Origin: Nocardioides marmorisolisilvae
Lineage (GTDB): Bacteria > Actinomycetota > Actinomycetes > Propionibacteriales > Nocardioidaceae
Reading direction: 5' to 3'
Assembly: GCF_003725775.1 (NCBI RefSeq)
Contig: NZ_RJSG01000003.1
Location: 361,307-425,306, forward strand
DNA: 64,000 nt
The position numbers and the translations under genes were made by a program. This document shows, in pieces, positions 22,741 to 26,952 of this stretch (position 1 is its first letter; each line of letters begins with the position of its first letter). The notes below the pieces were generated by a model. It was not told the origin of the DNA. It worked only from the letters and a program-made list of their open reading frames with translations, and made no database searches.

Positions 22741-23454
22741 GTGATCGCGTTGTCGATCGGTGCGACGTCCGTTGCGCACGGCATTCACTACGCCGTCCTC
22801 GGCGTCGGTCTGGCAGGTCTGCTCGCCCTGCTCGGTCCGCAGCTGGTCGGGGGGCGTCGCGGGACCTCGTTCCGCGACGAGCACTCGCTGCGGGTCCGGG
22901 CACTGTCCGAGCAGATCTCCGACGGCACGCTCGGCCTGCGCATCACCCCGGCCCCCTCCGTGACGCTGACCCGCGAGCCCGTCGATCTGGCCGGCGCCCG
23001 GTACCTGCCGCTGGCCGTCGTGAGCTCAGCAGCGGCGGCCGGGGTGCACGCCGCCGTCGGCCCGGAGCACTTCCGGGAGCAGGTCCTCTTCGGACTGTTC
23101 TTCGCCGGCTCCGCGCTCGCGCAGATCTGCTGGTCGGCGCTGATGGCGCTGCGGCCGTCGCGCGCACTGCTGGTGGCCGCGGTCATCGGCAACAGCGCGG
23201 TGCTGGTGCTCTGGCTGACGACCCGCACCGTCGGGCTGCCCGGACTCCTGCCCAACCCGGAGGCCGTCGGCCCCTGGGACCTCTGCTGCGGCGCGTGGGA
23301 GTTGATCGTGGTGATCACCTCCGCCCGTGCGCTGCGCACGCACGTCGACCTGCGCCTTCCGGCCTGGGCCGACTGGGAGCCGGTCGCCCGCTTCTGGGCG
23401 ATCGGCTCGGTACTGGCACTGCTCGCGTTGACCCTGAGCGGGGCCGGCGCATGA
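22741..23454 (+). CDS. Membrane protein, first gene of a signalling cassette
   Basis: A 237-residue integral membrane protein with about six helices. After helix 1 (HYAVLGVGLAGLLALLG) there is a basic cytoplasmic loop (residues 38-75). Conserved-looking histidines lie in or near membrane helices: VAHGIHYAV, AAAAGVHAAVGPEHF. The phrase HAAVGPEHF...GLFFAGSALAQ recurs, as I remember, in actinobacterial membrane proteins of unknown function. The clustered His could bind heme or metal, which is inference. GTG 22741 follows a GGGGAAGAGGG run. It is 22 bases upstream of the next cassette gene. Confidence 0.7.
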   Translation: MIALSIGATSVAHGIHYAVLGVGLAGLLALLGPQLVGGRRGTSFRDEHSLRVRALSEQISDGTLGLRITPAPSVTLTREPVDLAGARYLPLAVVSSAAAAGVHAAVGPEHFREQVLFGLFFAGSALAQICWSALMALRPSRALLVAAVIGNSAVLVLWLTTRTVGLPGLLPNPEAVGPWDLCCGAWELIVVITSARALRTHVDLRLPAWADWEPVARFWAIGSVLALLALTLSGAGA

Positions 23455-23476
23455 ACCTAGGTGAGGTGGACCCGCG

Positions 23477-24079
23477 ATGGAGTCCTGGCAAGTCGGTCTG
23501 ATCGGCAACGCGGTGATCATGCTCGCGTACCTGCTGATCACCCTCGCGATCGTCGTCCCGCTGGCACGCAGCCACCAGCTGCGCACCAACCCGCTCGGCG
23601 CCGCGACCGGCGCGATCTTCTTCACCTGCTCGGTCCACCACGGCGCACACGCCCTGCACATGCTGTTGCCCTCGCTCGGGTTCACCGACGCGCAGGGCCT
23701 GGCGATGCGGGAAGCGTGGGGCTGGCCCCTGGCCACCTGGGACGTGGTCGGCGCTCTGGTCGCGGTCTACTACTGGACCCTGCGGCGCAACTACTCCTCG
23801 CTGATGCACGGCGCCCAGCTGTTCGAGGACCTGCGCGCCCGCGAGCAGCAGGCGCTCGAGCTCAACGACACCGTCCTGCAGGGTCTGGTCGTCGCGAAGA
23901 TGGCTCTCGACCTCAACCAGCCCGATCGTTCGCAGGAGGCGCTGACCTCCTCGATCTCGGCCGCGAGCCGGATCATCACCGACCTGCTCGGCAACAGCCA
24001 GGAGGGCATCGAGCTGGTCCGCAGCATGCCGGCCGAGATCGAGCGCGAGCCGCAGGACGACCAGAGCGAGGTCACGTGA
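23477..24079 (+). CDS. Membrane kinase remnant lacking the phosphoacceptor histidine and ATPase domain
   Basis: A 200-residue protein with three to four membrane helices (residues 8-100) carrying VHHGAHALHML, a His cluster at the membrane face, followed by a cytoplasmic coiled region resembling the dimerisation helix of NarL-type kinases. Where such kinases have LHD, this protein has LELNDTVLQGLVVAKMALDL: the histidine is Asn130. It ends without any HATPase domain. It cannot be a conventional kinase and may act as a sensor or phosphatase-like partner for the receiver-kinase fusion encoded next, with which it is translationally coupled (GTGA at 24076-24079). ATG 23477 has GAGGTGG upstream. Confidence 0.75.
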   Translation: MESWQVGLIGNAVIMLAYLLITLAIVVPLARSHQLRTNPLGAATGAIFFTCSVHHGAHALHMLLPSLGFTDAQGLAMREAWGWPLATWDVVGALVAVYYWTLRRNYSSLMHGAQLFEDLRAREQQALELNDTVLQGLVVAKMALDLNQPDRSQEALTSSISAASRIITDLLGNSQEGIELVRSMPAEIEREPQDDQSEVT

Positions 24080-25545
24080 GCGCCGAACCCGAGCCCAAGC
24101 CGCTCCGGGTCGTCATCGTCGACGACACCGCGGACCTGCGCGAGCTGCTCCGGCTCGCCCTGGTCCGGGGCGGCATGCGCGTGGTCGGCGAGGCCGGCGA
24201 CGGGCGCGCCGGGATCGAGGCGGTCCGCATCGGCCGACCGGACGTCATCCTGCTCGACCTCTCGATGCCGGTGATGGACGGGCTGGAGGCGCTGCCGCAC
24301 ATCCGGGCCCTCGCACCGCACGCCCGCATCATCGTGCTCTCCGGCTTCGGGGCGACCCAGATGGCCGAGCGCGCCCTCGAGGTCGGCGCCGACGGCTACC
24401 TCCAGAAGGGCGCTTCGCTCGGCCGGATCCTCGACCACATCCGTGACATCGTCGAGGGGCGCTCGATCAATCCGGCTCCCCGGACCGGCAACCGCCCCGA
24501 GGGCTGGGACGAGCAGCAGCACGGCTTCGGCGCGGTCAACCACGTCCCCGGACAGCGCGACCCGATGCCCGAGGAACCGGCGCGGTGGGACGCCCTGGCC
24601 CTCGCGCCGTTCGGGATCATCGAGGTCAGCGCCGAGCGGCCGTACCGGATCGTGCGGCTGAATCCGGCCGCGCAGAAGCTCGTCGAGGTGCACCCGCTCT
24701 ACCCGGGCACGCCGCTCCAGGACGTCGCGCCGGAGCTGGCCACGACGATCGCGGAGAACCGGTTGCGCGGCGACATCGAGTTCGAGGCGACGTCGGGCGC
24801 CGAGCCGGTCCAGGTGACGTTGCGGCACAGCGGGAGCTCGCTCGTCATCTACCTGCGCGCGATCACCGACGAGGTCGGCAAGCTGCGCAGCGCGATCGCG
24901 ACCACGGCGCACGAGATCCGCGGACCGGTCGCGGTGCTCTGCGCCGTCGCCGAGACGTTGACCGATGCCGAGGAGGGCGACCTGGACGCCGCCCAGCAGG
25001 CCCGGTTGATGTCGTCGGTCGCCCGCCAGTCGCGGATGCTCGACTCGATCACCGCGGACCTGCTGACCGCCGCGCAGATCCAGCGCGGCACCCTCCGCGT
25101 CGAGCCGCACAACCTCGACCCGGTGGCGCTGATGGAGACCCTGGTCCAGGACCGCTACCCCGGCAGCGTGACCGTCGACGTCGCGGACTCGCGCCAGGTG
25201 ATCGCCGACCCGCTCCGTCTCGAGCAGATGATCGGCAACCTGCTCAGCAACGCGCACAAGTACGGACGTCCGCCGATCGTGCTGCGGACCCGTCCGTGCG
25301 ACAGCCACCCCGAGCAGCTGTGCATCGACGTCGAGGACGACGGGGTCGGCGTACCCGAGCAGTTCCGGGCGCAGCTGTTCCGCGAGTTCAGCCGGGCCAG
25401 CGGCACGGTCGCGGCCGGCACCGGACTCGGCCTGCACGTGGTCCGGACCCTCGCCGAGGCGCAGGGCGGTTCGGTCTCGTACGCCGACGCGCCCGGCGGC
25501 GGGTCGGTGTTCACGCTGACGCTGCCGGCCGTCACCCGTTCCTGA
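24076..25545 (+). CDS. Receiver-PAS-histidine kinase fusion protein
   Basis: A cytoplasmic 489-residue protein with an N-terminal receiver domain (VIVDDTADLREL; phosphoacceptor Asp61 in VILLDLSMPVMDG; Lys in YLQKG), a PAS-like region (about 170-262: LAPFGIIEVSAERPYRIVRLNPAAQ), a HisKA domain with His279 (ATTAHEIRGPVAVL) and a complete HATPase domain (MIGNLLSNAHKYG, EDDGVGVP, GTGLGLHVVRTL). Having the receiver first and no membrane part suggests it is an intermediate that is itself controlled by phosphorylation. It depends on the two preceding membrane proteins for input, by inference from coupling. Confidence 0.88.
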   Translation: MSAEPEPKPLRVVIVDDTADLRELLRLALVRGGMRVVGEAGDGRAGIEAVRIGRPDVILLDLSMPVMDGLEALPHIRALAPHARIIVLSGFGATQMAERALEVGADGYLQKGASLGRILDHIRDIVEGRSINPAPRTGNRPEGWDEQQHGFGAVNHVPGQRDPMPEEPARWDALALAPFGIIEVSAERPYRIVRLNPAAQKLVEVHPLYPGTPLQDVAPELATTIAENRLRGDIEFEATSGAEPVQVTLRHSGSSLVIYLRAITDEVGKLRSAIATTAHEIRGPVAVLCAVAETLTDAEEGDLDAAQQARLMSSVARQSRMLDSITADLLTAAQIQRGTLRVEPHNLDPVALMETLVQDRYPGSVTVDVADSRQVIADPLRLEQMIGNLLSNAHKYGRPPIVLRTRPCDSHPEQLCIDVEDDGVGVPEQFRAQLFREFSRASGTVAAGTGLGLHVVRTLAEAQGGSVSYADAPGGGSVFTLTLPAVTRS

Positions 25546-25833: not shown

Positions 25834-26952
25834 TCAGGGGGTCGAATCCCCCGACCCGTGTCTTGACGGGTGCAGGGCCGCCGCCACCTTGAGGAGCACG
25901 TCGTTCGCGTCCGGCTCGCCGATCGAGACCCGCACGCCCTCGCCGGCGAACGGGCGCACCACGATGCCGGCCTCCTCGGCTGCGGCGACGAATTCAGCGG
26001 TCCGGTCGCCGAGCTCGAACCAGACGAAGTTGCCCTGGGCCTCGGGCACGGTCCACCCCGCATCGGCGAGGCCGGCGACCACCCGGTCACGCTCCGCGAC
26101 GATCGAGGCGACGCGTTCGAAGAGCTCGACCTCGGCGTCCAGGCTCGCCACGGCTGCTGCCTGCGCCAGCGACGAGACCCCGAAGGGCAGCGAGCACGCC
26201 CGCACCGCTTCGGCGATCGGCGCGGGACCGACGAGGTACCCGACCCGCAGCCCGGCCAGACCGTAGGCCTTGGCGAAGGTCCGCATCACCACCACGTTGC
26301 CCCGGCTCGTGGCCAGGCCGACACCGTCGACCGGGTCGGCGCTCCGCACGAACTCCAGGTACGCCTCGTCGATGACCACCACGACGTCGCTGCGGACCGC
26401 CGCCAGGAACGCCTCCACCTCGCTCCGGGTCAGCGCCGGACCGGTCGGGTTGTTCGGGGTGCAGAGCAGCACCACCCGGGTGCGCTCGGTGACCGCGGCC
26501 GCCATCGCCGGCAGATCGTGCCGGCCGTCGGCGGTCAGCGGCACCTCGACGCCGGTGGCCCCCGCCACCGTGATCGCGATCGGGTACGCCTCGAACGAGC
26601 GCCAGGCGAGCACCACCTCGTCGCCGGGCTCGCAGAACGCCTGGAGCAGGTGGTAGAGGATCGCGACGCTCCCGGTGCCGACAGCGACCTGGTCGAGCTC
26701 GACCCCGAGCTTGGTGGCCAGTGCGGTGCGCAGCTCGACCGAGCCCATGTCGGGGTAGCGGTTCATCACCGCGCAGGCACGTGCGGCGGCCTCGAGCACG
26801 CCGGGGAGCGGCGGGTAGGGGTTCTCGTTCGACGACAGCTTGTAGGTGATCACGTCGTCGCGCGGCACCGGCGGCCGGCCCGGCACGTACGCCGGCATCG
26901 CGGTCACCTCGGCTCGCGGGGTGGGCAGGGACTGCGGCTCCGAGGTGCTCAT
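25834..26952 (-). CDS. Histidinol-phosphate/aromatic aminotransferase (class I/II PLP enzyme)
   Basis: A 372-residue PLP-dependent aminotransferase of the HisC/Pat group. Evidence: the N-terminal YKLSSNENPYPPLP, the PLP-contacting GTGSVAILYHLLQAF, the CTPNNPTGPALT and VVIDEAYLEF blocks, the PLP-lysine motif MRTFAKAYGLAGLRVGY, and the C-terminal GIVVRPFAGEGVRVSIG. The enzyme either makes histidinol phosphate or transaminates aromatic keto acids; actinobacteria usually have both paralogues, and the lack of other his genes here favours the aromatic (Pat) role, as inference. It has a leaderless promoter and is divergent from the EamA gene. Confidence 0.88.
   Translation of the reverse strand: MSTSEPQSLPTPRAEVTAMPAYVPGRPPVPRDDVITYKLSSNENPYPPLPGVLEAAARACAVMNRYPDMGSVELRTALATKLGVELDQVAVGTGSVAILYHLLQAFCEPGDEVVLAWRSFEAYPIAITVAGATGVEVPLTADGRHDLPAMAAAVTERTRVVLLCTPNNPTGPALTRSEVEAFLAAVRSDVVVVIDEAYLEFVRSADPVDGVGLATSRGNVVVMRTFAKAYGLAGLRVGYLVGPAPIAEAVRACSLPFGVSSLAQAAAVASLDAEVELFERVASIVAERDRVVAGLADAGWTVPEAQGNFVWFELGDRTAEFVAAAEEAGIVVRPFAGEGVRVSIGEPDANDVLLKVAAALHPSRHGSGDSTP

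Follow-up and report, generated by a model that had tools for sequence, protein, structure and literature searches.

What can a membrane sensor do once its kinase module has lost both the phospho-histidine and the ATPase domain? The question is raised by a 64,000-nucleotide stretch of Nocardioides marmorisolisilvae (contig NZ_RJSG01000003.1, positions 361,307 to 425,306; the window), in which three tightly packed, co-directional open reading frames (ORFs) on the plus strand occupy 22741-25545. They are called genes 1, 2 and 3 (Table 1). Gene 3 starts with GTG, and this start shares 4 nt with the end of gene 2, stop codon included. The sensor in question is gene 2. Its C-terminal stub is very probably a kinase-dead HisKA_3 derivative matched to a receiver. 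We give it an even chance of acting mainly as a receiver phosphatase.

The stub motif reads E-L-N-D-T-V-L-Q and includes N130, D131 and Q135. The first-pass annotation of this DNA had seen that Asn130 replaces the phospho-histidine and that an ATPase domain is absent, and both observations stand: domain families were assigned against Pfam, and no HATPase family matched gene 2 or the relatives scanned. Its conclusion that phosphorelay cannot start at gene 2 also holds; the kinase-dead protein is real and conserved. The motif was called NarL-type and is instead of the NarX/HisKA_3 type, that is, of the kinase. Two membrane proteins had been placed ahead of the L-N-D protein; they exist, but the second of them is the L-N-D protein itself.

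The window stub scores 16.1 bits with HisKA_3 (cut-off 24). In an AlphaFold2 model of moderate confidence (predicted local distance difference test, pLDDT, 73), helix 3 of gene 2 leaves the membrane and continues to residue 145 (83-145); after a turn comes another helix, 149-171. The arrangement fits the hairpin of a HisKA_3 dimerisation and histidine phosphotransfer (DHp) domain. VIA-align of residues 112-176 gave DesK and the DesK-DesR phosphatase complex as top matches, with Z of 8.9 and 8.6, modest values that chance alone can give for helical hairpins. Foldseek found no significant match in the PDB for either structure model, the stub profile retrieved only designed and unrelated helical proteins from the PDB sequences, and the CheZ family was not matched in the Pfam scans. 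A conserved tail, PGDLVR..PA, lies past the hairpin (24002-24034) and at the same place in other stubs; its Arg182 and Ala186 are invariant in the three-gene block.

The stub is not confined to this locus. A profile built from 26 stubs and searched in 326 Actinomycetota genomes gave strong matches (>40 bits) in 19 genomes, below which scores dropped to <34 bits. All 11 examined loci just under this gap were true HisKA_3 kinases with His and ~150-175 amino acids after the match. With E-values no higher than 1 (the lowest 1.9e-6), the Pfam HisKA_3 model matched 19 of the 26 stubs, and the stub of locus L125 passes its cut-off. The sensors to which the stub is C-terminal include PAS, MASE1, ETR1-like and unassigned domains. 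No plasmid relatives of gene 2 were found in PLSDB. The genome that contains the cassette encodes a second stub protein (L099; G000:C4:1245684-1246304), a 626-amino-acid ORF with the motif ND..Q.

Among 61 distinct stubs the phospho-histidine position holds Asn in 49, His in 11 and Gln in one, so that homologues of gene 2 mostly share its Asn and, as far as scanned, its lack of an ATPase domain. The Asp131 position is kept in 61/61 and the Gln135 position in 60/61. His-bearing stubs include one block member (L005), and about seven Asn/His swaps are placed on the stub tree, which has few columns and many open forks. For comparison, this genome has 14 HisKA_3 kinases whose H-box is visible; all of these carry His, and six of them have Gln at D+4. 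The D-x-x-x-Q pair hydrolyses phospho-receivers in NarX, in DesK-type sensors and in CheZ (PMC5231405; PMC3510030; PMC12632262). NarX can do without the His as a phosphatase and depends chiefly on the Gln (PMC5231405; PMC3510030). Invariant D131 and Q135 beside a freely exchanged His/Asn130 therefore point to a receiver phosphatase rather than a scaffold.

The three genes, which the first-pass annotation took as one cassette, are indeed kept together. In a sample of 150 Nocardioidaceae genomes, 22 hold a full gene 2, this one included. A receiver gene follows directly in 22/22, with a kinase domain attached in 21/22 (in G079 the third gene, L147, is a receiver alone), and gene 1 lies upstream in 21/22. 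Gene 2 is not a product of chance, because its identity in the 21 other genomes is 55-86% and D131 and Q135 are invariant there. The pdhAB/EamA flanks are replaced beyond the closest relatives while the block persists; the block is therefore kept as a unit. Pairs of an ETR1-like stub protein and a receiver-kinase also occur in other Actinomycetota families (L097, L110 and L116).

The usual partner of the stub is a receiver. At most examined stub loci a receiver gene lies within ~65 nt downstream or the receiver is fused in the same chain. Such fusions are L099 (PAS-PAS-stub-receiver), L108, L109, L131 and L134. In the 1121-residue protein L102 (G189:C15), gene 2-like and gene 3-like parts are joined as MASE1-PAS-stub-receiver-HisKA-HATPase. 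Many loci pair the stub with a receiver alone and have no kinase nearby. The catalytic set (two acidic residues, the phospho-Asp, Ser/Thr and Lys) is complete in all 48 partner receivers. On a tree, a single branch separates 46 distinct partner receivers of many families (Shimodaira-Hasegawa-like approximate likelihood ratio test, SH-aLRT, 89) from a comparison set of 28 other receivers drawn from this genome only; shuffling gives an expectation of 22.7 changes. Since the partner receivers form one clade and are linked or fused to stubs, stub and receiver look like an inherited pair to which the kinase is an optional addition. A PDB sequence search typed the receiver as CheY-like, which is uninformative, and no DNA-binding effector was found in the cassette or in the receiver-only pairs. 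The stub proteins L098, L104-L107, L117, L118, L121, L128, L133 and L135, several with PAS/MASE1 sensors, have no receiver nearby; their receivers, if any, would be encoded elsewhere.

Gene 3 is a receiver, a linker and a complete kinase, as the first-pass annotation had described it. Response_reg (residues 12-122), HisKA (271-338) and HATPase_c (378-485) all score above their Pfam cut-offs, catalytic residues are present and Asp61 occupies the phospho-acceptor position. The PAS-like middle matches Pfam weakly (E 0.17). Gene 3 has Gly at the position where HisKA kinases require Thr or Asn to act as phosphatases. The 21 distinct block kinases have Gly (15), Asn (5) or Thr (1) there; of the genome's 20 remaining HisKA kinases, 13 carry Thr, five Ser, one Ala and one Asn, and none carries Gly. 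In CrdS, an Asn-to-Ala exchange at this position gives a kinase-plus, phosphatase-minus enzyme. With Gly in most block kinases and D/Q in the stub, the core of the family seems to split the two opposite activities, with gene 3 as the kinase and gene 2 as the phosphatase.

The membrane part of gene 2 consists of three helices and carries C51-H54-H55-H58-H61. Residues 6-68, aligned with no net gap, score 25.3 bits (cut-off 27) with Pfam ETR1_N, the domain by which plant ethylene receptors hold copper and ethylene. Four relatives from other Nocardioidaceae exceed the cut-off, and no match occurred in 14 control genomes (0/14). The ungapped register aligns N11 with ETR1 D25, C51 with C65 and H55 with H69; Y18 and I21 are presumably the equivalents of ETR1 Y32 and I35. 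C51 and H55 are invariant across 24 block proteins. Cu(I) in ETR1 is held by Cys65 and His69 (PMC12744750). The membrane sensor thus probably binds a metal. A heme or metal site had been suggested earlier; the metal is plausible given the conserved copper ligands, while heme finds no specific support and is rated low. The ETR1-like domain is also fused to GGDEF or ordinary HisKA kinases in other genomes (L030, L031, L041 and L048), as expected for a sensor domain, and some of these copies have lost the Cys/His ligands.

A mechanism can be proposed in which the two opposite enzymatic halves of a two-component module are placed on separate proteins. Gene 3 would be a soluble kinase with its own receiver domain. 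Gene 2 would be an ETR1-like membrane receptor, probably a Cu(I)-binding three-helix sensor, whose third helix runs straight into the DHp hairpin. The stub would use the retained D-x-x-x-Q, by which NarX- and DesK-type sensors hydrolyse receiver aspartyl-phosphate. A change of ligand or metal state in the membrane, the ligand being perhaps a metal or a metal-bound gas, would rotate or bend the helix and so switch the grip of the stub on the gene 3 receiver and its dephosphorylation; the state of this receiver would in turn gate the attached kinase. Gene 1 would play an accessory part in the membrane, perhaps by supplying metal or as a co-sensor. That gene 2 is a metal-type membrane sensor removing phosphate from the receiver of the gene 3 kinase may hold or fail with equal likelihood.

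Several observations weigh against such a split pair. Six block kinases lack the Gly of gene 3 and have Asn or Thr instead. The alignment with DesK is about one heptad out of register and the stub hairpin looks shorter; given also the moderate pLDDT, the match supports the fold and not the register. About a dozen stub proteins lack a neighbouring receiver gene. In G105 (L190:3192-5302), gene 2 is missing and genes 1 and 3 directly share 4 nt, either by a clean deletion or by an assembly join. The position of ETR1 Asp25 is Asn11 in all block members. The main doubt comes from ChrS: when truncated in the ATPase domain with the DHp domain intact, it appears to lose its phosphatase function (PMC9491836). 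A bare stub may therefore only bind.

A pseudokinase that acts by binding, as DivL does, is the most serious alternative, less probable but far from remote. The stub would grip the gene 3 receiver according to signal or phosphorylation, tether the kinase and gate it allosterically without hydrolysis. The linkage, the receiver clade and the fusions fit this equally, DivL and ChrS show that binding can be the mode of action of such pseudokinases (PMC9491836; see also PMC4211667), and the apparent phosphatase defect of truncated ChrS counts for it. It leaves unexplained why D131 and Q135 are invariant while His/Asn130, their neighbour on the docking face, is exchanged, and many of the partners are receivers without any kinase to scaffold. 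The first-pass annotation had proposed a membrane-bound scaffold for the receiver-kinase. The gene 3 receiver is indeed the natural partner, but D131 and Q135 point rather to a phosphatase acting on it.

The ligand raises a separate alternative, in which gene 2 is a bona fide actinobacterial ethylene receptor signalling through gene 3. The ETR1_N similarity, with four relatives over the Pfam cut-off and the Cys/His ligands in exact register, speaks for it. Bacterial ethylene receptors exist, and AzoEtr1 likewise adjoins a receiver-only gene (PMC11819568). Asp25 is required for ethylene binding, and AtETR1 mutants at this residue do not bind it (PMC11819568). With this Asp absent, ethylene binding is doubtful, and so is gene 2 as an ethylene receptor in the strict sense; the complete scenario is improbable. 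The presumed counterparts of ETR1 Pro36 and Ile62 in gene 2 differ as well, which counts further against it.

Residual phosphotransfer is quite unlikely too. Here a stub resembling a histidine phosphotransfer (HPt) domain would receive phosphate in trans from the gene 3 ATPase domain and hand it on to the receiver, the Asn forms being losses. His does persist in 11 of the 61 stubs, L005 in the block among them, but 49 have Asn, which cannot replace a phospho-histidine, the tree shows several exchanges between His and Asn, and many loci have no kinase nearby. That gene 2 is a decaying pseudogene, a broken kinase retained through linkage only, is hardly credible: His and the ATPase domain are lost, but identity is 55-86% at family-level distances with tens of invariant residues, the gene overlaps the start of gene 3 and the same stub is reused with unrelated sensors.

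Several known systems share parts of the cassette. The HisKA_3 kinases NarX, DesK and ChrS have in common with the stub the DHp hairpin, D-x-x-x-Q, a receiver partner and, to a degree that mostly stays under the cut-off, the sequence profile; unlike in them, the phospho-histidine is missing from most stubs, the ATPase domain is absent and the partner is not a DNA-binding response regulator. ETR1, SynEtr1 and AzoEtr1 have the three-helix membrane domain with Cys/His copper ligands in the same register. Gene 2 differs from them in Asn for Asp25 and in a kinase core shrunk to the stub. Some plant ethylene receptors also carry degenerate kinases. In DivL and other pseudo-histidine kinases the phospho-histidine is replaced, and gene 2, like them, would work via a receiver and another kinase. 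DivL keeps its ATPase domain and is HisKA-type, unlike the recurrent, HisKA_3-derived stub without ATPase. Linkage, fusion and the common receiver clade suggest that gene 2 takes part in a two-component network. The D-x-x-x-Q pair is also what CheZ uses on its phospho-receiver (PMC3510030), but the dedicated receiver phosphatases CheZ and CheX are unrelated proteins and not membrane sensors. The domain order of gene 3 is that of receiver-first kinases (REC-PAS-HisKA-HATPase), from which it would differ in being controlled by a separate kinase-dead membrane sensor. A receiver-only gene follows AzoEtr1 (PMC11819568).

Each ingredient is known by itself: pseudo-histidine kinases, sensor phosphatases and domains of the ETR1 type. 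In the open-licence papers searched, neither a family of ATPase-less stubs nor its association with a clade of receivers was found described, and the stub-receiver pairing recurring across Actinomycetota appears undescribed. The novelty claimed earlier for the order of three genes shifts: the new part is less this order than a stub-receiver module that recurs with many sensors, often with no kinase. With slightly less than even confidence, we propose an undescribed family of Actinomycetota sensors in which many inputs act on a kinase-dead, ATPase-free HisKA_3 stub that has its own receiver clade and would be a signal-controlled receiver phosphatase. In the present cassette a copper-receptor-like domain would run the phosphatase half, and the kinase half would have lost its phosphatase residue. 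An open issue in the field is whether kinase-dead histidine kinases can persist as phosphatases. On the basis of Pfam counts, a 2025 perspective found 0.3% of HisKA_3 domains without His and argued against phosphatase activity as a general function of pseudokinases (PMC12632262). The stub family lies mostly under the Pfam HisKA_3 cut-off and would therefore be largely missed by this census. It offers a small, natural and recurrent test object, with the needed residues kept, the kinase parts gone and the receiver adjoining. In addition, the cassette couples a copper domain resembling that of ethylene receptors to an unusual output in actinobacteria.

Gene 1 matched no Pfam or NCBIfam family. 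His13, His16, His103 and His110 are conserved, and the domain is widespread on its own in Actinomycetota. Anecdotally, some copies adjoin metal genes (multicopper oxidase, DUF305, CbtA). At L188:1448-3927, a relative of gene 1 overlaps a GGDEF-EAL gene, whose product is a possible further signalling partner for this membrane family.

Table 1. Features of the three-gene cassette (positions in the window)
Feature	Position	Strand	Remark
Gene 1	22741..23454	+	237 aa polytopic membrane protein; Nocardioidaceae partner in cassette
Gene 2	23477..24079	+	200 aa; ETR1_N-like membrane sensor and kinase-dead HisKA_3-type stub
ETR1_N-like three-helix membrane domain of gene 2	23492..23790	+	N11, Y18, I21, C51, H55 in register with ETR1
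Putative metal ligands Cys51...His55 (C-x-x-x-H)	23627..23641	+	equivalent to ETR1 Cys65/His69
Stub (residues 112-186), ATPase-free DHp hairpin of the HisKA_3 type	23810..24034	+	
Asn130 at phospho-histidine position	23864..23866	+	
D131-x-x-x-Q135, HisKA_3 sensor phosphatase motif	23867..23881	+	
Gene 3	24076..25545	+	489 aa; receiver, PAS-like linker, HisKA, HATPase_c
Receiver domain of gene 3 with D16, D17, D61, S89, K111	24109..24441	+	
Asp61, receiver phospho-acceptor position	24256..24258	+	
HisKA H-box H279-E-I-R-G283 of gene 3 (then P)	24910..24924	+	Gly at Thr/Asn phosphatase position
HATPase_c domain of gene 3 with both N-box and G-box intact	25207..25530	+	

A consensus scan found no sigma-70-like promoter. 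Downstream of the cassette, ARAGORN called a tRNA-Gly at 26084-26179 on the minus strand, inside a hisC-like aminotransferase gene (25834-26952, minus strand); this call is probably a false positive.

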